A DNA stretch of 38,594 bases from Candidatus Zipacnadia bacterium (GCA_029821635.1 JALGSW010000018.1:1-38594), one strand, 5' to 3'. Counted from the stretch's first letter, positions 2-19,461 are shown. Translations and numbers: made by a program. Notes: a model not told the origin generated them from the sequence alone.

Positions 2-2059
2 GACCCGAAGCTCTTCGCGCAGGCCCGCAGCTACCCCGCCGACGAGCGCATCCTCTCGCGTCGCGACGGCATGGCCCGCCACGACCCGGCCCCCGCGCTC
101 GTGCACTGCTGGGATGGCGAGACCGGCCTCGGCGTGATGGCCGGCGGCGACGCCCGCGCGGTCTCGCACGCCATCGAGCCCGGCTCGAACCTCGTGCAGC
201 TTGCGGCGTACTCGCAGCCGCTGCGCTGGACCGGGCCTCCCTCCGACGCGCGGCTGGAGCTGCGCCTGGTCATCGGCGCGACGCCTGATGAGGCCCTCGC
301 GCTGCACCGCGCGCTCACGCCGGGCCTGCCTCCGGTAGAGATCGCGCGGCTCGACGTGGACCGCCTCGTGCACTGGCTCGACGAGCCGGGTGCCGCGACC
401 GCGGTTGTGCGCAGTAACGCCGACGAGGCGCTTACCGTGCGGCTGCAGGCGACGGTCCGCGGTGGCCTGAGTGACGAGCTGGCGCTGCCCGAGCAGTCGC
501 TGGAGCTCGCGCCCGGCGAGGCCGTGGCGGTGCGGCTGCAGTGGCCCGCGCAGGCTGAGTGGGGCCATGAGCTGGCCGTGCGGCTGCTCGGCGAGGACGG
601 CGCGGAGCTCGACGTGGCACGCGAGTGCTTCGCTGCGAGCGACAACTTCTCGCGCGTCGGACAGATCGTGGTCTTCAACCCGGGCTGGATGAACGCCGAG
701 TGGCAGATCGACCGGTGGGTCGAGTGGGCGCGGCGCAACGCGATCGGCACGATCGAGTACTACTGCTGGGCGCCCGACCAGGTCTTCGACCTCACGCCCG
801 ACACCGAAGTCTTCGAGCCGCACACCGAGTCGCAGGGCGCCTACCGCGCCGAGTTGACGCGCACGTTCCTGCAGGGCCTCGTCGCGAGCGCGCACGAGGG
901 CGGCCTGCGCGTGCTGGCGATGGACACGGGCATGGCGAGCCTGCCCGGCGCGCTCAGCCACCCCGAGCGCATCCGCTACACCGCCGAGGGCCAGCCCTAC
1001 CTCTACAACGGCGACATCCACGACGACCGGCGCTTCAACGCCGTCCCCGCACACGTCTTCACCACCGACCGCATCCGCGACTGGGCCAACGAGATGGCCG
1101 CGTCCGTGGACATGTTCGGCTGGGACGGCGTCCGCTTCGACTGGAATTTCCTGCCGGTTTCGGCACAGGACCCGTTGTACCTTGGCAGTGAAGAGGACGC
1201 CGACTCGCACACCTGGTATGACTGGCAGGGGCGGTCGGTGCACGAGCTGTTCCCGCAGCCCGATGCGACCGCCGCCGAGCTGTGTCGCACCTGGCGTGAG
1301 ACCGTCGTCGCCCGCCACCCGCGCTTCGTCTACCACGGGAACTACCAGGTCAACGAGGAGATGCTCGGGGCCTTCCCGCAGTACTCGCGCACGGCCTGCG
1401 CGAGCTCGGGGATCTTGCGCGAGGGCCTGCTGAACGTCGCGATCCGCTACCCGGCGTGGCAGGAGTGGACCGCTGCGCTGATGGACACCACGCGCACGAT
1501 CCGGCCACTCGACGCACAGCCGTCGGTCGGCTGGATGCGCGGCTACGCGCCGGGGAGCGTCGCGCACCGCGTGCTGCAGTACTGCATGATGGCCGCGGGC
1601 TACCACTGGTACGGGACCGCCGGGGCGCGCTACTCCATCGACGACACCTGGACGCGCTTCCGCCACGCGATGCGCTTCTCCGAGTACTTCTACGGGCCCG
1701 ACTTCCTGCCCGCCGCCGACGCCGCGACGGTCTCGGGCGAGGGCGCCGAGCGGGTGCTCTGGCAACCGTTCGTCTACGCCCGGGAAAGCGGCGGTACGCG
1801 CGAGACGCTCGTGCACCTCGTGAACCTGCCCGCGAGCGACCACATCATCCAGCGCCACGAGCAGCCGCCCGTGCGGCGCGACCTGACGGTGACGGTGAGC
1901 CTGCCCGCGGGCGCCGAGGTCGCGGGCTGCTATGCGCTCGTACCCGACCCGCAGCCACACGCCGAGGCGATTGACTGGCAGCCCGCGGGCGAGGGGCGCG
2001 TGCAGGTGACGCTGCCGGAGCTGCGCGAGATGGCCTCCGTGCTGGTGATCGCGCAATGA
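2..2059 (+). CDS. Glycoside-hydrolase-like TIM-barrel protein, 5' partial
   Basis: The reading frame is open from base 2, so the true start lies outside the window; the first in-frame ATG is at 71. The visible part, about 685 residues, has an N-terminal beta-rich region. A TIM-barrel-like part follows, with GWMNAEWQIDRW, EYYCWAPDQ and GWDGVRFDWNF; the Asp in the last motif sits where many GH-A/GH13/GH66-like barrels place a catalytic or substrate-binding acid. A C-terminal beta domain closes the protein. Its likely role is carbohydrate cleavage or binding, but I cannot assign a numbered GH family. The stop overlaps the ATG at 2056 (ATGA), suggesting co-transcription with the next gene. The GH-like fold is inferred from motifs. 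Confidence in a real gene is high; confidence in function is low. Confidence 0.72.
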   Translation, partial: DPKLFAQARSYPADERILSRRDGMARHDPAPALVHCWDGETGLGVMAGGDARAVSHAIEPGSNLVQLAAYSQPLRWTGPPSDARLELRLVIGATPDEALALHRALTPGLPPVEIARLDVDRLVHWLDEPGAATAVVRSNADEALTVRLQATVRGGLSDELALPEQSLELAPGEAVAVRLQWPAQAEWGHELAVRLLGEDGAELDVARECFAASDNFSRVGQIVVFNPGWMNAEWQIDRWVEWARRNAIGTIEYYCWAPDQVFDLTPDTEVFEPHTESQGAYRAELTRTFLQGLVASAHEGGLRVLAMDTGMASLPGALSHPERIRYTAEGQPYLYNGDIHDDRRFNAVPAHVFTTDRIRDWANEMAASVDMFGWDGVRFDWNFLPVSAQDPLYLGSEEDADSHTWYDWQGRSVHELFPQPDATAAELCRTWRETVVARHPRFVYHGNYQVNEEMLGAFPQYSRTACASSGILREGLLNVAIRYPAWQEWTAALMDTTRTIRPLDAQPSVGWMRGYAPGSVAHRVLQYCMMAAGYHWYGTAGARYSIDDTWTRFRHAMRFSEYFYGPDFLPAADAATVSGEGAERVLWQPFVYARESGGTRETLVHLVNLPASDHIIQRHEQPPVRRDLTVTVSLPAGAEVAGCYALVPDPQPHAEAIDWQPAGEGRVQVTLPELREMASVLVIAQ

Positions 2060-2106
2060 GGTCGCTCGTGCTCGTTACGGCGCTGACCGTCGGAGGAGGC
2101 CACACA

Positions 2107-3954
2107 ATGGCCGATGCTGTGACATGGATCGCCGCGGAGGATGAAACGCGCGTAACCCGCGAGGGCGCGTGGTCCGAGACCGCATTCCGCTACGCCGAAC
2201 GCTCGCACCTCGCGACGACGGAGGACGGTGCCACCCTCACACTTGCTTTCAGCGGCACGGACCTGATCGTGCGCCTCGGCCAGCACGCCGTGCCCGCCTA
2301 CGGAGCGCCTAACTTCGGCGCTCTCGCCGTCAGCATCGACGATGGCCCCAAGCGCATCATCCAGCCAATCACGGAGCCGCGAGAGATCGTACTCGCGCGT
2401 GGCCTCCAGCCGGGCGAGCACACCGTTCGCCTCGAGCACCGCATCTCACAGGCCGGCTCCGTCGCACGCATCGAGGCCTTCGGCGTGTCGGATACCCCGA
2501 CCGGTGAGCTGGCCTTCATGCTCACCGGTGAACGCAACGCGTACCTGGTCGATGCGCGCGCGATCGTCACTCGCGACGGCACTCCGGTCGCCGAACGGCT
2601 CGTGCGCAACTGGCTGACCGGGGGCTGCCGCCTCGCGGGGCTGCCGCCGGGCGAGGGCTACCGGCTGGAGTTGCGCGCGATCGGCTGGCAGCCGGTCACG
2701 ATCGAGGGCATCAGCGTCGAGGCAGGCCGCGAGACGCTGCTGCCGCCCATCCACCTTGCCGCCGACCCGGCCACGCAGGCGCGCGGCTTCCTCTCCCCTC
2801 GCATCGGCAGACAGACGGTCCACCGCGCCGGCGAGAGCTTCCGCGCGCGCTTCCAGGCCCGCGGTGCCGAAATCGCGGGCGTGCGCATCGTGCGTATCGT
2901 CGGCCCGGCCACGATCTCCCGCGAACTGAGCTTCGTTGAGGACGAGGCGGCGGCGTTCTACTACGACCGCGAGATCGTCGCGACGCTGCCCGCGGACGCG
3001 CCGCCGGGGCTCTACGACCTCATCGTGACCGCGCGCTGGCCGGAGCAGGGCGCCGAGCACGAGTTCCGCTCGCCGCGCGCGGTGATGGTGGTCGATCAGT
3101 TCCCCGCCGACCCGGTATTCACGTCGTGGGGGCACCTCGACACGCAGGGACAGTACCAGGCCGAGTACCTCCGCGACCTCGTGGCGATCTCCAACCTCTG
3201 CGGGGCGGACATGGTCCTGATGGCCTGCGCGTGCAACCCGGCATACATCGCGGGCGCGCTGGCGGACCTCGAGGTGCCCTTCGCAGTGAACTTCGGCAAC
3301 CATCAGTTCGCGGGCTTCGAGCAGTGGTTCGGACCGCAGGAGGGCGTGATCGACTACGGCCCCAACCTGTGCGTGCTAAACCGCTCGCTCCCGTGGCATG
3401 AGGACACCGCCGGGGCCGATGCCATGCTGGCGGCCCGGGCCGATGCGCGTATCAAGGTCATCAACGCCTTCGAGCACAACGCGCCGGTCGAGCTGCTGGA
3501 CCGCCACGGGGTTGCGCTCGTGCATGACGGCCACGGGCCGGGGTTGCGCGTCTTCGAGATGGGCGCGACGCCGACACTGCGCGTGGGCAAGTCGAACTCC
3601 GAGAGCTTCCGCGTGACCCGCTTCCGCGATGGACGAGTGGCGTCATGCACGTATCTGGGCGATGAGAGCGGGCCGATCCCCTTCCCGCGCGGCTCGACGC
3701 CGCCACTGCGCCTGAGCGTCGATCCGCCCGCCGACGGCACGCACGCTGAGGTCCGCGCGACCATCGCGAACGACCTCGCCGAGGCGTTCCCGAACTGCCG
3801 CCTGACGCTCGTGATGCCCGCCGGCGACTACGCCTGCGATGGAGGGCGCATCGAGCGCGCGATCGTCAGCGACGACGGCGACTTCGTCGTGCTGACCGTT
3901 CGCGCCGATGCCGCCCCGCAAACTGAGACAGTCGTCGCAATCCACCCGAGGTGA
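2107..3954 (+). CDS. Calcineurin-like phosphoesterase-related protein
   Basis: An ATG at 2056 overlaps the upstream stop, but the ATG at 2107 is preceded at 7 nt by a strong GGAGGAGG and is preferred, giving 615 aa. The longer form would add a weak hydrophobic leader. Residues 1-240 are beta-rich. Around residues 335-400 the pattern SWGHLDT, a CGADMV strand and GNHQ (His399) resembles the metal-binding core of calcineurin-like phosphoesterases, where GNHD/E is usual. The first Asp-x-His motif is not canonical, so activity is uncertain. The C-terminal ~90 residues look like a CARDB/Ig-type domain. The last 38 bases, encoding QTETVVAIHPR and the stop, are duplicated at 5398-5435 beyond the PEP-CTERM gene. 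The gene converges on that gene with a 16-bp gap. Confidence 0.6.
   Translation: MADAVTWIAAEDETRVTREGAWSETAFRYAERSHLATTEDGATLTLAFSGTDLIVRLGQHAVPAYGAPNFGALAVSIDDGPKRIIQPITEPREIVLARGLQPGEHTVRLEHRISQAGSVARIEAFGVSDTPTGELAFMLTGERNAYLVDARAIVTRDGTPVAERLVRNWLTGGCRLAGLPPGEGYRLELRAIGWQPVTIEGISVEAGRETLLPPIHLAADPATQARGFLSPRIGRQTVHRAGESFRARFQARGAEIAGVRIVRIVGPATISRELSFVEDEAAAFYYDREIVATLPADAPPGLYDLIVTARWPEQGAEHEFRSPRAVMVVDQFPADPVFTSWGHLDTQGQYQAEYLRDLVAISNLCGADMVLMACACNPAYIAGALADLEVPFAVNFGNHQFAGFEQWFGPQEGVIDYGPNLCVLNRSLPWHEDTAGADAMLAARADARIKVINAFEHNAPVELLDRHGVALVHDGHGPGLRVFEMGATPTLRVGKSNSESFRVTRFRDGRVASCTYLGDESGPIPFPRGSTPPLRLSVDPPADGTHAEVRATIANDLAEAFPNCRLTLVMPAGDYACDGGRIERAIVSDDGDFVVLTVRADAAPQTETVVAIHPR
3917..3954 (+). 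repeat. 38-bp direct repeat, copy 1 (functional 3' end of the phosphoesterase-like gene)
   Basis: The repeat begins CGCAAACTGAGACA and ends CACCCGAGGTGA, including the stop codon. It matches 5398-5435 at 36 of 38 bases. The two differences, at 3924 and 3930, are both third-codon-position changes within Thr codons. The copies bracket the oppositely oriented PEP-CTERM gene. Confidence 0.95.
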
Positions 3955-3970
3955 CCGGTCAAGCCAACGC

Positions 3971-5125
3971 TCACTTCTCCCTGCGGCGGAACTTACCAAC
4001 GAGGCCTGCCAGGCCGATGCCAAGGAGGGCGATCGTGCCCGGTTCAGGCGACGAATTCGTCCGATGGATGTCCCCCTCGGACTGCCAGGCTATCCAGTCT
4101 CCATCGATCTCAGGGAGCATGTCATCAACGTCATTGTCGGTCACGACGTAGGTGTCACGTCCGTCATAGTAGAAGATCTCGTAGTCGTCGCCGTACGCGG
4201 AATCCTTGCCGTACCAGACTGCCTGCCCCCGGTCATTGATCCGGGGCCTCCGCCCCTCATCGAGATCCGCGGTTAGAATGATGACGGCACTGCCGTCCCA
4301 GTACTCGATCTCGTTGCCGGGGTTGAAGCGATACCAGACAACTTCGCCACTGTCGCTGATCTGGACATAGTCGCAGTTGTCGCTGGCGTGCTCCTTGATC
4401 TTGGTCTTCGTCGTTCCATTCCAGAGCCAGACGTCGTAGGAGCTGTCCCCGGTCCACGCGACGTGGCCGCTGTTGTTGATTGCGGGAGCGGTGTCCCAGC
4501 CGAACGCGTCATCTGAGATGTTGGTCACGTTGTAGCCGTCCCAGAAGAAGATCTCATAGCCGTTGATGTCCGGATCGAAATGGTCGCCCCTCTCTATCCA
4601 CGCGATCTGATCCGCGTCATTGATCGCGACGTCTTCCGGTCCGAAGAGCGCAGGGCTGTTCCATATCTCCGTGGCGTTGGTTCCATCCCAGAGATAGATG
4701 AAGTCTCCCTCAGCCCAGGCAACGTGTCCCTGGTCGTTCATGGCCGGTGTGTCCAGCCATGCATCGGTGATCTCCACGGAGGCCGAGCCGGCGTCCTCCA
4801 CAAAGTGCATCCCGTAGGGTGATCCCCATGGCGACCATACGGCGTTCCCCGCATCGTTCAGCTCGTGCGCCCAGACGCGGTCGGCGGCATCATTCGACAC
4901 ATTCACCGCGGGGCCAGAGCCGTTCCACAGGAATACGTCGGAGCCACCGGTACCGTCGCCAAGCCACATCATCTGCCCCGACGAGTTGATCCTGACCCCC
5001 GACTCCACGCCCCCCGGCGTGCGAGTAACGTTGTCGACCGGATGCGACCACGACCGGACATCCGCGGGCGCGATGGCTGCGCAACAGAGGGCGACCATCA
5101 CCGTTAGGGCAATCCGGCTTCGCAT
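3971..5125 (-). CDS. PEP-CTERM sorted surface protein with beta-propeller-like repeats
   Basis: The start is the ATG at 5125, with AGGAGT seven bases upstream; this gives 384 aa. The first ~24 residues are a signal peptide (MRSRIALTVMVALCC, then an AxA-like site). The mature part carries about eight short repeats of the form (I/M)N-(D/N)-x-G-x-x-x-W, such as MNDQGHVAW, INDADQIAW, INNSGHVAW, ISDSGEVVW and INDRGQAVW. Most are followed by a W-(N/D)-G strand, as in bladed extracellular propellers. The C-terminus is a textbook PEP-CTERM signal: SSPEPGTIALLG, a hydrophobic stretch, then KFRRREK. Such proteins are processed by an exosortase and delivered to the outer surface; no exosortase gene is visible here. 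Base composition is visibly less GC-rich than the flanks, and duplicated flanking sequence suggests an insertion. The ligand is unknown. Confidence 0.88.
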   Translation of the reverse strand: MRSRIALTVMVALCCAAIAPADVRSWSHPVDNVTRTPGGVESGVRINSSGQMMWLGDGTGGSDVFLWNGSGPAVNVSNDAADRVWAHELNDAGNAVWSPWGSPYGMHFVEDAGSASVEITDAWLDTPAMNDQGHVAWAEGDFIYLWDGTNATEIWNSPALFGPEDVAINDADQIAWIERGDHFDPDINGYEIFFWDGYNVTNISDDAFGWDTAPAINNSGHVAWTGDSSYDVWLWNGTTKTKIKEHASDNCDYVQISDSGEVVWYRFNPGNEIEYWDGSAVIILTADLDEGRRPRINDRGQAVWYGKDSAYGDDYEIFYYDGRDTYVVTDNDVDDMLPEIDGDWIAWQSEGDIHRTNSSPEPGTIALLGIGLAGLVGKFRRREK

Positions 5126-5441
5126 TCCCATCACTCCTGAACTGCGGGTTGTCGGTGGAACGGCGTCGTGCCGCTTGCGCCTCGCGGCTTCCGTGCTGCT
5201 GACAGGAACCATTCATCGCACAATTGTCCCAACCTCCTCAAGAGATGCTCACAGAACTACCGAAGAGGACTTGCTTAGCTCGCTACACGACCGCATATTT
5301 CTCACAAGACAACAAAGTGTCGCACGCTGCGTTGTGTGCCAGGAGTCGGCGCAGACCGAAGGGAATGGTAGGCACTGGGCGAATTCCCCGAACGTGTCGC
5401 AAACCGAGACCGTCGTCGCAATCCACCCGAGGTGATGGACG
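5126..5441. other. Intergenic stretch between divergent genes
   Basis: This 316-bp region holds the leader of the PEP-CTERM gene and, at its right end, the second copy of the 38-bp repeat. It is relatively AT-richer than the neighbouring genes. I found no convincing -35/-10 pair on either strand and no tRNA or terminator. A GAGGAGG near 5236 (minus strand) precedes an alternative longer reading frame, but the ATG at 5125 has the better-placed ribosome binding site. Confidence 0.6.
5398..5435 (+). repeat. 38-bp direct repeat, copy 2 (orphan coding end)
   Basis: This is the second copy of the 3' coding end found at 3917-3954, with two synonymous differences at 5405 and 5411. No intact gene runs into it. 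Its GAGGTGA serves as the apparent ribosome binding site for the TTG start at 5442. This suggests copy 2 is the ancestral junction with the downstream gene. Confidence 0.93.
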
Positions 5442-7220
5442 TTGTCCGATGAGCCGATCACTCAGCGCGATGTGATGATGCCGCTGCGCGATGGCGTGCG
5501 CCTCGCGACAGACCTGTACTTCCCGCCCGCGTGGAGTGAGGGCGATGAGCCGCTGCCCGTCATCCTCGCGCGCACGCCCTACGACAAGACCGCGCAGGCC
5601 GAGATGGCCATCGGCGCGGCCCGACACGGCTACATCTTCGCCTCGCAGGACGTGCGCGGCCGCTACGCCTCCGAGGGCGAGTTCTACGCCTTCGCTCACG
5701 AGGGCCCGGACGGCTATGACACCGTCGAGTGGTTCGCCGAGCAGCCCTGGTGCGACGGGAAGGTCGGGACCATCGGCCAGTCCTACTGCGCCGCGGTGCA
5801 GAACGCGCTGGCGTCGCTGAACCCGCCGCACCTGTCGGCGATGATCATCACCTACGGGCCGTCGAGCTACTACCACCACGCCATGCGCCACAACGGCGCG
5901 CTGGAGATGCGCTTCTTCGTCTACGCCTTCAGCATGGCGAGCACGAGCCGCGAGGCAATCGCCGATCCGAAGATCAAGGCCGCGCTCGATGACGCCTGCG
6001 CCAACATCTGGGACTGGGTGCGCGCCTGCCCCATCCAGCCGGGCGAGTCGCCGCTCGCGCTCGTGCCGTCATACGAGCGCTGGCTGCTCGACATCCTCCG
6101 CCTCGCGAGCTACGACGACTACTGGCGGGCACCCGGCTACGGGCCGCTGCCCTGGTACGATCAGCACGCCGACGTGCCCACGCTCTACATCGGCGGCTGG
6201 TACGACAGCTACACGCGCGCGACGTGCGAGAACTTCGTGGAGCTGTCCCGCCGGCAGGAGCAGCCCGTCCATCTGCTGATGGGCCCGTGGCATCACGGCG
6301 GCGCGGGCGTCCCACGCGCGGGTGACGCGACCTTCGCCGGTGGCGGTCTCGACGACTACCTCGGCATGAGGCTCAGCTTCTTCGACCGGCACCTTAGGGG
6401 CGACGAGGCCGCGGAGTTCGGCCAGGAGCGCGCGGTGCGCTACTTCATCATGGGCGGCGGCGAGGGGCCGGCGGAGGACGGCCGCGACATCGAGCGCGGC
6501 GGCGAGTGGCGCGAGGCCGACACCTGGCCGCCCGCCGGGTGCGAGCCGACCGCGTTCTACCTGCAGCCCGACGGCGGCCTCGCGACGGAGCCGCCTGCGG
6601 TGGAGGACGCCGCGACCTCGTGGACCTTCGACCCGAGCGACCCGGTCCCGACCATCGGCGGCAACCTCTCGGCGCTCGGCGTCGATCCGGGCGCCTACGA
6701 TCAGCGCAACAGCGACCGCTTCCCGTTCACGACCGGCACGCTGCATCTGTCGGCGCGCAGGGATGTGCTGTGCTTCGTGACCGAGCCGCTGGAGGAGGAC
6801 GTGGCGATCGCCGGGCCGGTCGAGGTCGTGCTGCACGTCGCCACCGATGGCCCGGACACGGACTTCACCGCGAAGCTGATCGACGTCTACCCGCCCTCGG
6901 AGAGCCATCCGGCGAGCTGCGCGCTGAACCTCAGCGACAGTATCATGCGCCTGCGCTTCCGCAACGGCTTCGAGCGCGAGGAGCTTGCCGAGCCGGGCGA
7001 GGTCTACGAGCTGCGTTTTCAACTCTACCCCACGGCCAATCGGTTCACGGCGGGCCATCGGATTCGCGTGGACATCTCGTCGAGCAACTTCCCACGCTTC
7101 GAGCTGAACCCGAACACGGGCGCTCCACTCGGCTCTGACCGTGGCCGCCGCATCGCGCAGAACACGCTGCACCACGACGCTTCGCGCCCGTCGCGGGTGG
7201 TGCTCTCGGTGCTGCGGTAG
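5442..7220 (+). CDS. CocE/NonD-type S15 family hydrolase (X-Pro dipeptidyl-peptidase-like)
   Basis: This 592-aa protein belongs to the S15 alpha/beta hydrolases, which cleave esters or Xaa-Pro peptides. The N-terminal catalytic domain has RDGVRLATDLYFP, DVRGRYASEGEF and a nucleophile elbow IGQSYCA with Ser114. Asp255 in GGWYDSY and His284 in MGPWHHGG complete the triad, in the order and spacing known for cocaine esterase. The last ~220 residues form the PepX_C jelly-roll domain. No signal peptide is present, so it is probably cytoplasmic. An in-frame stop at 5433-5435 limits the start. TTG at 5442 has GAGGTGA about seven bases upstream; the next candidate is an ATG near 5472, which would cut into the domain. 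The substrate cannot be told from sequence. Confidence 0.9.
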   Translation: MSDEPITQRDVMMPLRDGVRLATDLYFPPAWSEGDEPLPVILARTPYDKTAQAEMAIGAARHGYIFASQDVRGRYASEGEFYAFAHEGPDGYDTVEWFAEQPWCDGKVGTIGQSYCAAVQNALASLNPPHLSAMIITYGPSSYYHHAMRHNGALEMRFFVYAFSMASTSREAIADPKIKAALDDACANIWDWVRACPIQPGESPLALVPSYERWLLDILRLASYDDYWRAPGYGPLPWYDQHADVPTLYIGGWYDSYTRATCENFVELSRRQEQPVHLLMGPWHHGGAGVPRAGDATFAGGGLDDYLGMRLSFFDRHLRGDEAAEFGQERAVRYFIMGGGEGPAEDGRDIERGGEWREADTWPPAGCEPTAFYLQPDGGLATEPPAVEDAATSWTFDPSDPVPTIGGNLSALGVDPGAYDQRNSDRFPFTTGTLHLSARRDVLCFVTEPLEEDVAIAGPVEVVLHVATDGPDTDFTAKLIDVYPPSESHPASCALNLSDSIMRLRFRNGFEREELAEPGEVYELRFQLYPTANRFTAGHRIRVDISSSNFPRFELNPNTGAPLGSDRGRRIAQNTLHHDASRPSRVVLSVLR

Positions 7221-7296: not shown

Positions 7297-9894
7297 ATGC
7301 GTCCTCTGCTACTCGTGCTTGCCGCGATCACCGTTGCGTTGCCCGCCGTGGCTCAGCGCCCCTCCAACGTCACCCGCGGCGTGTACGTCCATTCGCGCGA
7401 CCTCATGGCCGCCCACGTCTGGTCCGACTGGAGCGGCGGCTTCGACTTCGTCACCGATGACCCGCACTCCGGTGAGACAGCCATCCGCATCACGAACGCC
7501 ACCGGCGAACAGGGCGGTGGCGCGGGCCAGAACGTCGAGGTCAATCAGCAACAGGCCGCACCGCTCAAGATCGCCGGCTGGAGCCGCGCCGAGGGCGTGG
7601 ACGCCGGCGACCCCGACTGGCAATACTCCATCTACGTGGACCTGCGCTACACCGACGGTGAGAGCTGGCCGATGAAGATCGCGGCCTTCGAGCGCGGCAG
7701 CCACGACTGGCAGTACTCCGAGACCATCATCGAGCCGCCCAAGCCCATCGCCTCCGCGCGCTTCTACGTCTTCGTACGCAACATCGGTGGCACCGCGTGC
7801 TTCGACGACCTGTTCTTCGGGCCGGTCGATGGCGACAACTTGCTCAAGATCCCCGGCTTCGAGGGCAACGCGATCGACGACTTCGCGCCGCGCCAGGAAG
7901 TCCTGAGCGACCTCGACGCGATGCACTGCAACGCCATTCATACCTACATCGGCGTCCCCACGGACGAGCGTAGCGATGAGGCGCTGCGGGAGATGCTCGC
8001 GGCGGTCACCGAACGCGGCTACGGCGTAACGCTCACCCCGCACATCGCCTACGGGACCTTCAAGGACGCCGACGATCCGGCCTTCCCGAGCTACGCCTGC
8101 GTCAACAGCGATTGGGGCGACCGCTGGGTCGCAGCCTGCGGCGCGATGGCACAGTACCCGTTCATGGGCGTCTCCGTGGTGCCCGACGAGTACAACTGGA
8201 ACACCGGCCGGCTCAAGCGGGCCTACGCCAACCACGCCGACGAGCGCGTCAAGCAGTTCTACGCCGATCTCGGGGACTACTGTGACTGCGAGGCCTGCAG
8301 GGAGCGCTTCCAGGCAATGTTCGACATGCCCCTGCCCGAGATGGGCGGCTGGTCGCGCATCCCTGAGCAGTCCGAGGCCCACCGCAACTTCATCGACTTC
8401 CGCTACCAGTGCACCACCGACCTGATTGGCCGCGCGGTCGATGCCGTGCACGCCGGCCCCTACGAGACCGCCGCCGACTCGCTGATCTGCGTCTCGCCGA
8501 TCTGCAGCGATTACCGGCTCGGCACGGGCGTGGCGTGGGACATGGTCGGCTACGGCACCGGCATCGACTACCCGACCACCGACCCGTATATCCTCCTGCA
8601 CAACTACCTCGGCGACTCCACGCACTGGTACGTGACCGAGACCGCGATGCACCTGACCGGCTCGACACCGAAGCGCCAGTGCGGGATGGTGCTCGAAGCC
8701 GGGCATCTGCGCCCTGAGCACCGGCCGCTGCTGCCGGTGGAGATCTACGGGAGTGCGCTCTCGTCGGTGGCCCGCGGCGCAAAGGAGATCGGCTTCTTCC
8801 ACTATGTGCACCTGATGCAGAAGACCGAGGCGGGCCAGACGCAGGGGCAGTCGGCCTTCGACGCCGTGCAGGGCTGCTACGACCTGCTGGAGCGCATCGA
8901 CCCGTGGCTGGAGGGCGCGGAGCCGGTCAAGCGCGTGGCATTCCTGTACTCGCGCGCGTCCGACGAGTACTTCAGCTACTACACGCGCGGCGAGCCAAAC
9001 ATGGACGTCCTCACGCACCCGACCGACGACCCGCGCTACCCGTTCCTCGCGCAGAAAGAAGTCCTCTACTACCTGCTGCGCGCGGGCGTGCCGACGGACC
9101 TCTACTTCCTCGACGAGGTGAGCGCGGAGGAGCTTGCGGACTACGAGACTATCGTGGTGCCCTTCCCCTTCGCGATCAGCGAGGAGAAGGCAGCGATGCT
9201 GGAGAGCCTCGCCGAGGCGGGGAAGGCGCTGGTGGTGATCTCCGAGTTTGGCTCCGTGGATGAGCGCGGAGTCCCCTACGAGCGCCCGGTGCTGCTCGAT
9301 CTGCTGGGGCTGCAGGAGGCGCCGCGCGGGGAGAAAATCGGCCACATGGAGGTACTGTCGAGCTTCCACCCGAAAGACGGTGAATTCACGGTCTACGACA
9401 CCGTCGTCCCGACGGAGGACACGGAGACACTCGCCACGGTCGACGGAACGAGCGCCGTTACGCTCCGCCCGGTCGGTCGGGGCGCGGTCTTCTACCTCGC
9501 GGGTGAGTTCGGCATCGATCTCCCGGCGAACTACGACAATGAGATCCGCGACCGCACGGCATACATCATGCCCTCGGAGCTCTCACAGGGCCACGCGCGT
9601 CTGCTGGGCGAAATTTTCGACGAGCTCGCCCTAGCGGAGAGGCTCGTTCCGGAGGATGATGTCGAGCTTTCTCTGCTGCGCAACGCGGCGGGCGACTACT
9701 TGCTCTTCGTGATTAACTGGGAGGAGCAGCCCTCGTCCGTGGACCTCGTACTGCCCGATGAGGCCACCGGGACGGGCGCGGGCTTCGCCGTCGGCGCGAG
9801 TGGTGCCGTCACGGAGCGATCGATGGCTGCGGACGCGGGGAGCCTCGACCTCGCGCCGCAGGAAGCGGTCGTGTTGCGATTTGTCGCGCAGTGA
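7297..9894 (+). CDS. Secreted GH42-like glycoside hydrolase-related protein
   Basis: The frame is open further upstream, but the ATG at 7297 begins a clear signal peptide (MRPLLLVLAAITVALPAVAQ) and is chosen, giving 865 aa. After it comes a ~180-residue beta-sandwich resembling a carbohydrate-binding module. A TIM-barrel region follows from about residue 185, with VVPDEYNW (Glu298, placed like a clan GH-A acid). A Cys cluster DYCDCEACRERF (Cys329, 331, 334) comes next. Residues ~545-760 resemble the beta-galactosidase trimerisation (Rossmann-like) domain of GH42, including LYSRASDEYFSYY and YETIVVPFPFAIS. A short beta domain ends the protein. Its role is probably extracytoplasmic saccharide processing. 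The family assignment is inferred from domain order and motifs; activity is uncertain. Confidence 0.75.
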   Translation: MRPLLLVLAAITVALPAVAQRPSNVTRGVYVHSRDLMAAHVWSDWSGGFDFVTDDPHSGETAIRITNATGEQGGGAGQNVEVNQQQAAPLKIAGWSRAEGVDAGDPDWQYSIYVDLRYTDGESWPMKIAAFERGSHDWQYSETIIEPPKPIASARFYVFVRNIGGTACFDDLFFGPVDGDNLLKIPGFEGNAIDDFAPRQEVLSDLDAMHCNAIHTYIGVPTDERSDEALREMLAAVTERGYGVTLTPHIAYGTFKDADDPAFPSYACVNSDWGDRWVAACGAMAQYPFMGVSVVPDEYNWNTGRLKRAYANHADERVKQFYADLGDYCDCEACRERFQAMFDMPLPEMGGWSRIPEQSEAHRNFIDFRYQCTTDLIGRAVDAVHAGPYETAADSLICVSPICSDYRLGTGVAWDMVGYGTGIDYPTTDPYILLHNYLGDSTHWYVTETAMHLTGSTPKRQCGMVLEAGHLRPEHRPLLPVEIYGSALSSVARGAKEIGFFHYVHLMQKTEAGQTQGQSAFDAVQGCYDLLERIDPWLEGAEPVKRVAFLYSRASDEYFSYYTRGEPNMDVLTHPTDDPRYPFLAQKEVLYYLLRAGVPTDLYFLDEVSAEELADYETIVVPFPFAISEEKAAMLESLAEAGKALVVISEFGSVDERGVPYERPVLLDLLGLQEAPRGEKIGHMEVLSSFHPKDGEFTVYDTVVPTEDTETLATVDGTSAVTLRPVGRGAVFYLAGEFGIDLPANYDNEIRDRTAYIMPSELSQGHARLLGEIFDELALAERLVPEDDVELSLLRNAAGDYLLFVINWEEQPSSVDLVLPDEATGTGAGFAVGASGAVTERSMAADAGSLDLAPQEAVVLRFVAQ

Positions 9895-10053: not shown

Positions 10054-12009
10054 ATGACGAGGATCAGCCGCGCCTGCGGACTTATCATCGTGTACTGCGT
10101 TCTCGCAGGCCTGTTTTCATGCGGGATTGCAGCGGCGCAGGAGATCAACAGCGACTTCACGGAAGGCGTGCGTCTCTTCCAGGAGCGTTCCTACAACGCC
10201 GCCATCCGCAAGCTCGAGGCGGTCGTAGAGGCCGAGCCTGAGAATGAAGCCGCATGGTACTACCTCGGCGTAGCGCGCTACGAGCAGGACGAGCCGCAGG
10301 AGGCGCTTGAGGCCCTTCAGAAGGCCTACGAGCTCCGCCCCGGCCGCCCCGGCACGCAGCTTCACGTCGGGATGATCTACGAGCAGCTCGGCGCCTATGG
10401 TGAGGCGATCCGCGCCTATCAGACCGAGCTGCGCAACCGCCGCCTGAAGAACCTCGCTGAGGTCTTCATGGCACTCGGTCGGGCCAACTACTTCTCCGGC
10501 CGGTACTTCGACGCCAACGAGAATCTCACCGAGGCCATCGATCACGATGAGAACTACGTCGAGGCCTACTTCTACCGCGGCCTGGCGAAGTTCATGCGCG
10601 AGGAGTACGATCCCGCCCTCAAGGACTTCACACTCGCCACCGACATCATCGACGAGTGGGACCGTAAGCGCCGATCACTCGACAGTATGATCGAGCGCGA
10701 GGGCGAGGGCATGCTGCCTCCTGAGGCCCAGCGCGCCAAGCAGGAGTTGCAGGAGGAGCTCGCGCAGGACTACTCGCGAGCCGCCGAGTTCGCGCAGCAG
10801 AAGTTCCTGCGCCCGGCTCTCTACCTCGCCAAGGGCGACACGGATGTGCATCTCAAGGAGTACGGGAACGCCCGCAACTCGTACCGCAAAGCGCTCGACC
10901 CCGAGCGCGGTGGGAACGCATCCGACCCGCTTCCGCAGGTGAATGTCGGGCTTGCGTACTTCGAGCAGGCGGAGGACCTGTTCTACAACAAGGGCCTGCT
11001 GTGGACCGCGATCACCACGATCGATCAGGCGATCTACGAGATCGAGGGGGCGCTCGAGAACGACGAGGCCTACCCCGACGCCCACAAGGCCCTCGGTGAC
11101 ATCTTCTTCTTCCAGGCGTCCACCTACGTCTCCGACCCGGACCGCAAAGTCGTCTCCAGCACCTTCGACGAGGCACTGGAGCGCTACGACGCCGCGATCG
11201 CGTCCGCGCCGGACTACGTGGAAGCCTACGCGGGCCGGGCGCAGGTCTACATCGCCACCGACGAGCCGGACAAGGCGATCAGCGACCTGCAGTCCGCGCT
11301 GGAACTGGACCCGCGCAATCCGGACCTCTATGCCGCCCTCGCGATGGCGCAGATGCTCAAGGAGGACTACGAGCCGGCCATCAGCACCGCGCAGCTCGCG
11401 CTGAACATCGACCCGATGAACGCGCAGGCGCACGACGCCGCGGGGATGGCCTACTACTATATCGGCCAGCTCGGCGCCGCGAGCCAGCACTTCCTCGACG
11501 CCATCGAGGCCGACCCGGCGATGCACCAGTCATACACGAACCTCGGGAACACTTTCTATCAGATGGGCTCGTGGCACCGGGCGCGGATGAACTACGAGAA
11601 GGCGCTCGAGCTGATCCCCACGCCCGCCATCGCCAACACCGCGGTGCAGCGCAGCTACCTGTATTACCTGATCGCCACCACCCACCACTTCGCGAGAATG
11701 TATGACCGCGAGATCGAGGCGCTGGGTCAGGCGCTCGCGCTCGACTCGGCCTACCTCGAGGCGCTGATGCAGCTTGCCACCGCCTACACCGAGCTCAAGC
11801 AGTATCAGGCGGCCGAGCAGGCGCTGCGCACCGCGCTTGAGGTCTCGCCGGGGATGGAGGAGGACGCGGCCATCCACGTGCAGATGGGCCGGCTGTATGA
11901 GCACGAGGGGCGGCCGTACGAGGCGATTACCGCATATGGCGCGGCCCTCGCGGCTCAGAGCGACAATATTGAAGCCGGGGAGGCGCTGAAGCGACTGACC
12001 TCCGGGTAG
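10054..12009 (+). CDS. Exported tetratricopeptide-repeat protein
   Basis: This 651-aa protein begins with a signal sequence (about 28 residues, ending GIAAAQ). It then consists almost wholly of TPR units, starting at FTEGVRLFQERSYNAAI and AAWYYLGVARYEQDEP. I count at least ten, in two arrays separated by a charged, helical spacer at about residues 205-240. TPR solenoids bind partner proteins; no enzymatic domain is visible. The ATG lies about 11 nt after GAAGGGAG and about 40 nt after the predicted transcription start. It is the first gene of a block of four envelope-associated genes, so a scaffolding role in the periplasm or outer membrane is plausible but inferred. Confidence 0.88.
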   Translation: MTRISRACGLIIVYCVLAGLFSCGIAAAQEINSDFTEGVRLFQERSYNAAIRKLEAVVEAEPENEAAWYYLGVARYEQDEPQEALEALQKAYELRPGRPGTQLHVGMIYEQLGAYGEAIRAYQTELRNRRLKNLAEVFMALGRANYFSGRYFDANENLTEAIDHDENYVEAYFYRGLAKFMREEYDPALKDFTLATDIIDEWDRKRRSLDSMIEREGEGMLPPEAQRAKQELQEELAQDYSRAAEFAQQKFLRPALYLAKGDTDVHLKEYGNARNSYRKALDPERGGNASDPLPQVNVGLAYFEQAEDLFYNKGLLWTAITTIDQAIYEIEGALENDEAYPDAHKALGDIFFFQASTYVSDPDRKVVSSTFDEALERYDAAIASAPDYVEAYAGRAQVYIATDEPDKAISDLQSALELDPRNPDLYAALAMAQMLKEDYEPAISTAQLALNIDPMNAQAHDAAGMAYYYIGQLGAASQHFLDAIEADPAMHQSYTNLGNTFYQMGSWHRARMNYEKALELIPTPAIANTAVQRSYLYYLIATTHHFARMYDREIEALGQALALDSAYLEALMQLATAYTELKQYQAAEQALRTALEVSPGMEEDAAIHVQMGRLYEHEGRPYEAITAYGAALAAQSDNIEAGEALKRLTSG

Positions 12010-16980: not shown

Positions 16981-19461
16981 GTGGCAGACAAGAAGGCAAT
17001 CATCGTCGAGTCGCCCACAAAGACCCGGACGCTGTCCGGGTTCCTCCCTGAGGAGTACACGCTGCTCGCCTCGATGGGGCATGTACGCGATCTGCCCGAG
17101 GATGAGATGGGTGTGGACCTCGAGGGCGCGTTCGAGCCCACCTACGTGATCTCCGGGAAGCGCGCGATCACCGCGCTCAAGAAGGGCCTCAAGGACGTCG
17201 ATGAGGTCTACCTCGCGACTGACCCGGACCGCGAGGGTGAGGCGATCGCGTGGCACATCATGGACGAGCTGGGGCTGCGCTCAGCGCGGCGGATCCAGTT
17301 CAACGAGATCACGCGCGAGGCGGTGCTGGACGCGCTGGAGCACCCCGGCGAGATCAACATGGACCGCGTGGACGCGCAGCAGGCCCGACGCATCCTCGAC
17401 CGCCTCGTCGGCTACTCCCTCAGCCCGGTGCTGTGGAAGAAGGTCGGCGGCGGGCGCGGCGGCCCGGGCCTCTCGGCCGGACGCGTGCAGTCGGTGGCGC
17501 TGCGACTGATCACCGACCGCGAGCGCGAGCGCGCGGCGTTCGACGCCGAGGAGTGGTGGTCGATCGGCGCGCTGCTGCAGCCCGACGCGGGCGAGCAGTT
17601 CGAGGCCGAGCTCAAGACGATCGACGGCAAGGACGCCGAGCTGTCCGCCGAGGGTGATGTGACGCCGCTGGTGGAGGAACTCGGCGACGCGCAGTACGTC
17701 GTCGCGGCGATCGAGGAGAAGGAGCAGCAGCGCAACCCGCAGCCGCCCTTCATCACCTCGACGCTGCAGCGCGCTGCCTCCAACCGCCTGCGCTTCTCGG
17801 CGCGCAAAACGATGCAGATCGCCCAGCAGCTCTACGAGGGCGTGGAGATGGACGACAGCAGCCACGGGCTCATCACCTATATGCGAACCGACTCGACCAA
17901 CGTGGCCGCGTCGGCGCGCCAGCAGGCCGCGGACTTCATCGAGGGCGAGTGGGGCGGGAAGTACGTCGGCCCCGGCGCGCGCGGCAAGAAGGTCAAGGGC
18001 GCCCAGGAGGCCCACGAGGCGATCCGACCCACCACGGTGCGGCACAGCCCCGAGAGCCTCAAGAGCGTGCTGAGCAAGGATCAGTTCGCGCTCTACGATC
18101 TGATCTGGCGGCGCTTCCTGGCGTCGCAGATGGCCGCCGCTGTGGTCAATCAGACCGGCGTGAACGTCGAGGCCGGGCGCTTCGGCCTGCGCGCGACCGG
18201 CCAGGTCGTCGTCTTCCCCGGCTGGTACGCGGCCATGCCACGCGATGACGAGGACAAGTCGCTCCCCGAACTCACCGAGAGCGAGGAACTCTCGCTGATC
18301 GAACTCAAGCCCGAGCAGCACTTCACGCAGCCGCCGCCGCGCTACACGGAGGCGTCGCTGGTACGCGAGCTTGAGGCGAACGGCGTCGGGCGGCCGAGCA
18401 CCTACGCGGACATCATTGACACGCTCACGCGCCGCCGCTACGTGACCACCGAGAAGCGGCAGTTCGTGCCGACGCCGCTGGGGCTGTCGGTCTGCGACTA
18501 CCTCGTGGACAACTTCCCGGAGATCATGGACATCGAGTTCACCGCGCACATCGAGGAGGACCTCGATACCGTCGAGCGCGGCGAGCGTGACTGGCGCGAG
18601 GTGCTGCGCGAGTTCTACGGGCCCTTCGAGACCGAGATCGAGACCGCGCAGAACGCCGAGCCGCAGGTGCTTGAGGACGCGGTCTGCGAGGAGTGCGGCG
18701 GGAAGATGCTGGTGAAGTACTCGCGCCGCGGCAAGTTCGCGGGCTGCGAGAAGTATCCGGACTGCACCTTCACGATCGACCTGACCGGCGACGTGCTCGA
18801 GCGCCCGGCCGTCGAGGAGACTGATTTCGACTGCCCGGAGTGCGGGAAGAAGCTCATGCTGCGCACAGGCCGCCGCGGGCGGTTCTTCGGCTGCAGCGGC
18901 TACCCGGAGTGCGAGTACACCGCCGATGTAGGCGCCGAGGGCGAGCCGAAGGAACGCTCGCGCCCGATGGAGACCTCCGAGAGCTGCCCGGACTGCGGCG
19001 AGGGGACGCTGCTCGTGCGCGAGGGCCGGCGCGGCAAGTTCCTCGGCTGCTCGAACTACCCGAAGTGCCGCTACACGCGCGACTACGACGACGAGAACGT
19101 AGTTGGCGAGGCCTCCGAGGAGCTCGCGAGCCCCAACGGTGACCTGCCCGAGAGCAACGCGGTGCCGGTGTCCTGCCCGAAGTGCGATGGGCCGATGTCC
19201 GTGCGCAGCGGGAGCCGGGGCAAGTTCCTCGGCTGCCTGGGCTACCCGAACTGCAAGGGCACGCGGCCGATCAGCGACGCGATTGCGGCGGGCTGGGAGC
19301 CGCCCGCGCCCGAGGCGCTCGATGAGGAGTGCCCGGACTGTGGCAAGGGGCTGGTGCTGCGCGAGGGCCGCAAGGGCAAGTTCGTCGGCTGCAGCGCCTA
19401 CCCCAAGTGCAAGTACACGCGTGACTACCAGGCGGACGGGGAGGGCGCGAAGGCTGAGTGA
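16981..19461 (+). CDS. topA: DNA topoisomerase I (type IA)
   Basis: This 826-aa enzyme relaxes negative supercoils. The TOPRIM domain opens with AIIVESPTKT and contains the metal-binding ATDPDREGEA (residues 79-88). The nucleophile is Tyr300 in LITYMRTDST. After ~570 residues of core there are five consecutive C4 zinc-ribbon modules, beginning CEECGGKM, CPECGKKL, CPDCGEGT, CPKCDGPM and CPDCGKGL. Each is followed by a G-(R/K)-F-x-G-C-x-x-(Y)-P-x-C pattern. Escherichia coli has fewer intact metal-binding modules, so this tail is rich. The GTG start has AGGA about eight bases upstream and fits the family N-terminus. The large open frame on the opposite strand is a GC-driven shadow. Confidence 0.98.
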   Translation: MADKKAIIVESPTKTRTLSGFLPEEYTLLASMGHVRDLPEDEMGVDLEGAFEPTYVISGKRAITALKKGLKDVDEVYLATDPDREGEAIAWHIMDELGLRSARRIQFNEITREAVLDALEHPGEINMDRVDAQQARRILDRLVGYSLSPVLWKKVGGGRGGPGLSAGRVQSVALRLITDRERERAAFDAEEWWSIGALLQPDAGEQFEAELKTIDGKDAELSAEGDVTPLVEELGDAQYVVAAIEEKEQQRNPQPPFITSTLQRAASNRLRFSARKTMQIAQQLYEGVEMDDSSHGLITYMRTDSTNVAASARQQAADFIEGEWGGKYVGPGARGKKVKGAQEAHEAIRPTTVRHSPESLKSVLSKDQFALYDLIWRRFLASQMAAAVVNQTGVNVEAGRFGLRATGQVVVFPGWYAAMPRDDEDKSLPELTESEELSLIELKPEQHFTQPPPRYTEASLVRELEANGVGRPSTYADIIDTLTRRRYVTTEKRQFVPTPLGLSVCDYLVDNFPEIMDIEFTAHIEEDLDTVERGERDWREVLREFYGPFETEIETAQNAEPQVLEDAVCEECGGKMLVKYSRRGKFAGCEKYPDCTFTIDLTGDVLERPAVEETDFDCPECGKKLMLRTGRRGRFFGCSGYPECEYTADVGAEGEPKERSRPMETSESCPDCGEGTLLVREGRRGKFLGCSNYPKCRYTRDYDDENVVGEASEELASPNGDLPESNAVPVSCPKCDGPMSVRSGSRGKFLGCLGYPNCKGTRPISDAIAAGWEPPAPEALDEECPDCGKGLVLREGRKGKFVGCSAYPKCKYTRDYQADGEGAKAE

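Follow-up and report, generated by a model that had tools for sequence, protein, structure and literature searches.

A PEP-CTERM gene segment probably inserted, with a 38-bp target duplication, at a tight gene junction of a Candidatus Zipacnadia genome

In the window, a 38,594-nucleotide stretch of DNA that constitutes contig C15 of a metagenome-assembled genome (G000; 5.0 Mb, 247 contigs, 87.6% complete, 2.1% contamination), a 1,443-bp segment carrying one PEP-CTERM gene has probably been inserted, in reversed orientation, at the junction between a CE2 gene and a Peptidase S15 gene. The insertion would have duplicated 38 bp of the junction, and the entry would have been independent of target sequence. 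The named relatives nearest to this genome carry the labels Candidatus Zipacnadia and candidate division WS1.

The junction lies in an operon-like run of plus-strand genes headed by up1 (71–2059), which matches no Pfam family, overlaps the CE2 start and directly precedes the CE2 gene in the relative G007 as well. The CE2 gene (2056–3954) encodes a CE2_N domain (carbohydrate esterase 2 N-terminal, PF17996), is intact, and is 75% identical to its orthologue in G007. Its final 38 bases, consisting of C-terminal codons and the stop, form copy 1 of a direct repeat (3917–3954, plus strand). The inserted segment (3955–5397) follows, and then copy 2 of the repeat (5398–5435, plus strand), from which the S15 gene (Peptidase S15/PepX_C, 5442–7220, plus strand, TTG start) takes its Shine-Dalgarno sequence. 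The next gene of the operon, also on the plus strand, encodes a Glyco_hydro_42M protein (GH42M, 7309–9894, with the reading frame open from 7141), and it follows S15 in G007 too.

The two copies, CGCAAACTGAGACAGTCGTCGCAATCCACCCGAGGTGA and CGCAAACCGAGACCGTCGTCGCAATCCACCCGAGGTGA, are identical at 36 of 38 positions, and the likeness between them stops abruptly at both edges. The differences (ACT/ACC and ACA/ACC) both fall in Thr codons and are synonymous, as had been claimed in an earlier, sequence-only reading of this DNA, in which the 3' end of the CE2 gene, with its stop, was seen to recur after the PEP-CTERM gene. With an extension score of 32, the repeat is the best direct repeat of the window and is far beyond chance; in 40 windows simulated with a first-order Markov model, the best repeats scored 15 in the median and 17 at most. 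When the 5.0-Mb genome was searched with a 27-base pattern from the repeat, allowing up to three mismatches, the two flanking copies were the only matches and no third copy was found. The same reading held that copy 2 provides the next gene with its ribosome binding site, which agrees with the position of CGAGGTGAT in this copy. The motif precedes S15 in G007 and also in G003, where S15 has no CE2 gene upstream.

That the segment is an insertion, and that copy 2 marks the ancestral junction, are two further proposals of that reading which the comparison with G007 bears out. G007 belongs to Candidatus Zipacnadia, to another genus of the same family, and at its locus L048 the genes up1, CE2, S15 and GH42M occur in the same order and orientation, with 73–80% protein identity. 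There is full synteny on both sides and no PEP-CTERM gene between CE2 and S15. The junction of G007 is present in one copy and reads ...ACACGAGGTGATAGACGTTGGCC, the CE2 stop being followed directly by S15 (...GGTGATAGACGTTGGCCGG and then immediately the S15 gene). The right-hand flank in the window is GGTGATGGACGTTGTCCG, which places copy 2 at the old right junction, identifies copy 1 as the gene's own end and leaves 3955–5397 as the extra DNA. The left copy thus retains the ancestral left flank, and the right copy the ancestral right flank. The empty site of the window is seen in one relative, G007. Two other relatives also have no PEP-CTERM gene after CE2: in G001 the CE2 gene has no S15 behind it, with dispersed-repeat DNA there instead, and in G006 it is followed by GH42M. 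A full CE2 paralogue decaying within the segment, considered earlier as another source of the repeated end, was rejected, since a tblastn search matched only the 11 C-terminal CE2 residues of the short copy.

A precise empty site could also arise if the segment were ancestral and G007 had lost it by deletion between the repeats, and such deletions are common. The age of the repeat makes this most improbable. Copy 1 differs from G007 at 12 of 38 positions and copy 2 at 10 of 38, whereas the copies differ from each other at 2 of 38, which places the duplication in the lineage of the window. Across the whole CE2 gene, the two genomes differ at 21.8% of nucleotides and at 35.7% of third positions, and the probability of two or fewer differences in 38 would be about 0.006 if the copies dated from the split between the genomes. 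Barring gene conversion, the duplication therefore appears to be younger than that split.

At both sites where the copies differ, G007 has the base of copy 2, and copy 1 carries the derived bases. The pattern hints, though weakly, that copy 1 was altered or imported. A change on the gene side is unexpected for an insertion with target duplication, since the spare copy should drift first, and is weak evidence against the explanation that we favour. A bias towards G+C could account for the change in copy 1 and not in copy 2, with two sites to judge from. The derived bases would also fit a donor origin of copy 1, as expected under our main rival explanation, a one-sided homologous import (homology-facilitated illegitimate recombination). 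Here, a donor fragment consisting of a CE2 end and a PEP-CTERM gene would have recombined by a crossover within CE2 on one side, and on the other side would have been joined illegitimately 38 bp inside the end of the resident gene. For transformable bacteria, one-sided import is described as an established mechanism (de Vries and Wackernagel 2002, as cited in PMC2884548). We nevertheless consider it unlikely for this locus. A CE2 gene followed by a PEP-CTERM gene was found in no genome, the CE2 gene being followed by dispersed repeats in G001, by GH42M in G006 and by S15 in G007. Furthermore, one-sided import would account for the exact 35-bp leader repeat at a second locus, described below, only with a further donor of the same type.

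The segment contains one recognisable gene, on the minus strand (3971–5131, with the reading frame open to 5212), which ends 16 bp within the left edge of the insert. The encoded protein scores 25.3 bits against PF07589 (cut-off 20.7) and also exceeds the cut-off of NCBIfam TIGR02595. Its C-terminus carries the PEP motif, the hydrophobic stretch and the basic end that mark the class, above the curated cut-off. An ATG at 5131 or 5125, just after AGGAG, is judged from the sequence to be a more likely start than 5212. The genome encodes an exosortase (PF09721, at G000:C85) and has about 15 PEP-CTERM loci; the cargo would be a surface protein handled by the genome's own exosortase. The nearest matches of the protein share about 44% identity with it across roughly half its length and belong to other families of the same order, and within its own family we found only weak partial matches. 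A link to phages was considered and dropped, as viral contigs hold no relative of the protein, and we found no literature linking PEP-CTERM with 'target site duplication'. Upstream of the gene, the rest of the insert (5132–5397) is non-coding, with a GC content of 0.548 at 5213–5400. The other open reading frames tested in the insert have no Pfam match, and there is neither a recombinase nor a transposase among them. Terminal inverted repeats are absent from the insert, the best scores equalling the shuffled median, and neither a promoter nor a terminator consensus was found in it.

The segment had been described as reversed and lower in GC than its surroundings, and both statements hold: the gene is on the minus strand, and the GC content of the insert is 0.606, whereas the window as a whole has 0.677 and 881 long open reading frames of the genome have 0.686 ± 0.025. 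The PEP-CTERM gene itself (GC 0.614) is at the 0.9th percentile of these 881 frames. The comparison of codon usage that was proposed along with GC gave an ordinary result, since other PEP-CTERM genes in the genome have GC contents of 0.639–0.654 and the same GC3 as the gene in the insert (0.78–0.81). Because low GC is largely a trait of the PEP-CTERM class in this genome, it is weak evidence of foreign origin, and we have discarded it as proof. Recombination between gene ends, which the sequence-only reading had named as a possible route, may have brought the segment in, but no donor was found.

The agreement of the gene, its GC3 and the exosortase with the host also bears on whether the segment is an assembly chimera. 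With 247 contigs and 2.1% contamination, misjoined contigs have to be considered, but a chimera at this locus would require two joins at one place, together with a 38-bp overlap that has two synonymous differences, and we regard it as extremely unlikely. Since the GC3 of the PEP-CTERM gene is like that of others here, the gene may have originated in this genome or in that of a relative, which would be compatible with a circular molecule carrying it that was integrated by recombination at the 38-bp sequence; such an event would leave the structure that is observed. Such a circle must, however, have borne the sequence of its target beforehand, and there is no third copy in the genome. The repeat is also short for homologous recombination, for which a threshold of about 30 bp is given in Escherichia coli (PMC2884548). 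Integration of a circle is accordingly improbable.

A scan of another 1.74 Mb of the genome, in which direct repeats separated by 0.3–8 kb were sought and those due to dispersed repeats or paralogous domains removed, brought up a second insertion of similar form. This one additional clean case, on contig C31 (G000:C31, L130), has an exact 35-bp repeat (699–733 and 1228–1262) that comprises the leader of an aminotransferase gene with its Shine-Dalgarno sequence and ATG. The insert between the copies (734–1227, 494 bp) has one small open reading frame resembling a membrane protein. In five relatives (G001, G002, G006, G007 and G009) the neighbouring genes adjoin with a single leader. The repeats of the two loci are unrelated in sequence, and their lengths of 38 and 35 bp, from two clean cases, are unequal yet similar and well above those of transposon duplications.

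Two further repeats around accessory genes resemble these loci but did not prove clean. A scan around the approximately 15 PEP-CTERM loci of the genome, following the suggestion that other genes of this class might be bounded by repeats, returned one unique flanking repeat, which is not a clean target duplication. In this case (contig C166, L081), an exact 28-bp repeat (6643–6670 and 10100–10127) surrounds 3.4 kb with two PEP-CTERM genes, one of which encodes a C39-like peptidase domain. One copy falls within the 5'-terminal part of a large gene for a secreted-like protein, and the other ends an unrelated open reading frame that may be truncated. It was rejected as a clean target duplication because the intact gene start is on the insert side of one copy and the other copy ends the unrelated frame. 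At L150 (G000:C100:48000-67900), a 57-bp repeat (96% identical; 5254–5310 and 6140–6196) surrounds a VapC-AbrB toxin-antitoxin pair. It was likewise rejected, the copy before an HNH gene and its promoter being ancestral, as judged from G002; the extra copy, after the upstream gene, could serve as terminator of that gene. Dispersed palindromic repeats, for example GTAGGACAGGCTTTCCAGCCTGTCAGCCGTT and CGTGGCACGGGCGTCTCGCCCGTGCAG, occur in intergenic DNA at L087, L094, L096, L140 and L141 of the genome.

Integrative elements can use the 3' ends of genes as attachment (att) sites. The CE2 locus resembles such elements: the insertion left the gene with a complete 3' end that has only synonymous changes, which is also what is seen at att sites in protein-coding genes. 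The sequence-only reading had drawn this parallel while stating that no integrase is present. The absence of an integrase is confirmed for the open reading frames tested, and the PEP-CTERM gene remains the one recognisable gene of the insert, but the att-like interpretation itself finds no backing in the repeat. If an integrase had acted in trans on a minimal element without recombinase, the att sequence would be expected elsewhere, and there is no other copy of it in the genome and no second element with this site. The repeat has no att-like hairpin and no notable symmetry or fold (z-scores of -0.6 and +0.7), and the C31 insertion has an unrelated repeat, located in a 5' leader. We therefore consider att-site integration in trans to be very unlikely. 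An insertion sequence or transposon is not indicated either, as there is no transposase and there are no terminal inverted repeats. That the two targets (38 and 35 bp) are unrelated speaks against a shared att site, and equally against a single transposase with fixed ends. An active process in this lineage, in which an enzyme inserts single genes at tight junctions as cassettes without fixed ends and with duplications of nearly constant length (about 35–38 bp), seems improbable, at about the level of the circular molecule.

Based on these comparisons, the explanation that we favour for the CE2/S15 junction is illegitimate, sequence-nonspecific entry of the segment, for example during repair of offset strand breaks. 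As for the enzymology, we infer that the simplest start would be two breaks on opposite strands, about 35–40 nt apart. Fill-in of the overhangs would double the stretch between the breaks, and an unrelated fragment could be captured by end joining or by template switching. Ku (PF02735), which acts in bacterial end joining, is encoded by all three congeners examined (G001, G002 and G003), and was found neither in G000, where at 87.6% completeness absence is unproven, nor in six other family members searched. The presence of Ku in the congeners makes end joining a plausible route of capture, while the failure to find it in G000 counts against this explanation. Selection would then act at the tight junction, where stop and start are a few bases apart, sparing only insertions that double the gene end together with the ribosome binding site. 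Insertions that keep both neighbours working would be the ones that survive and hence the ones that are seen, which would explain why the repeat resembles a rebuilt gene end. A seemingly rebuilt gene end in a tight operon thus need not signal an att site.

The CE2/S15 insertion appears to belong to a known but mechanistically poorly understood kind called 'insertion with long target duplication', and because the pattern matches we regard it as a clear example. According to the accounts cited here, this kind was recognised from comparisons of Helicobacter pylori strains (Nobusato, Uchiyama, Ohashi, Kobayashi 2000, Gene 259:99-108, as cited in PMC1643837, PMC3031569 and PMC3874152), with restriction-modification genes as the main cargo. 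As in those cases, both loci of the present genome have a gene-sized insert without recognisable recombinase or mobile-element ends, and on either side of it a long direct copy of a target that is single and uninterrupted in relatives without the insert. The two duplications differ in length, although they are of similar size. Unlike the Helicobacter cases, the cargo is a PEP-CTERM gene, or a small open reading frame at C31, and the host is a Zipacnadia/WS1 bacterium. The duplications of 38 and 35 bp are also shorter than the length 'in the order of 100 bp' quoted in PMC3874152. Measured against these accounts, the different cargo and the shorter duplication are what is new here.

Similarities are also noted with small variable segments of three bacterial species, about 10–18% of which are flanked by direct repeats (PMC2884548). 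These likewise lie between conserved genes and are not accounted for by transposition or site-specific recombination. Their repeats are mostly shorter than 30 bp, and the segments themselves have often been interpreted as deletions, whereas insertion is backed here by the youth of the repeat. In Arabidopsis, transposed single genes are found between neighbours that adjoin in a relative, with direct target repeats longer than 30 bp, and circle-mediated recombination was proposed (PMC2869330). That system is a plant, and some parental loci are known there, in contrast to the present segment.

The CE2/S15 locus is a recent case whose two edges can be read along with its target and empty site, and together with C31 it makes the break geometry measurable, at 35–38 bp. 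It also widens a pattern from Helicobacter restriction-modification genes to surface-protein cargo and to an uncultured phylum. For most small variable bacterial genes, we know of no established entry route. Elsewhere in the window, an imperfect 39-bp coding repeat (18882–18920 and 19380–19418), with a GCSGYPEC-like translation, probably reflects repeated zinc-ribbon modules of one protein.
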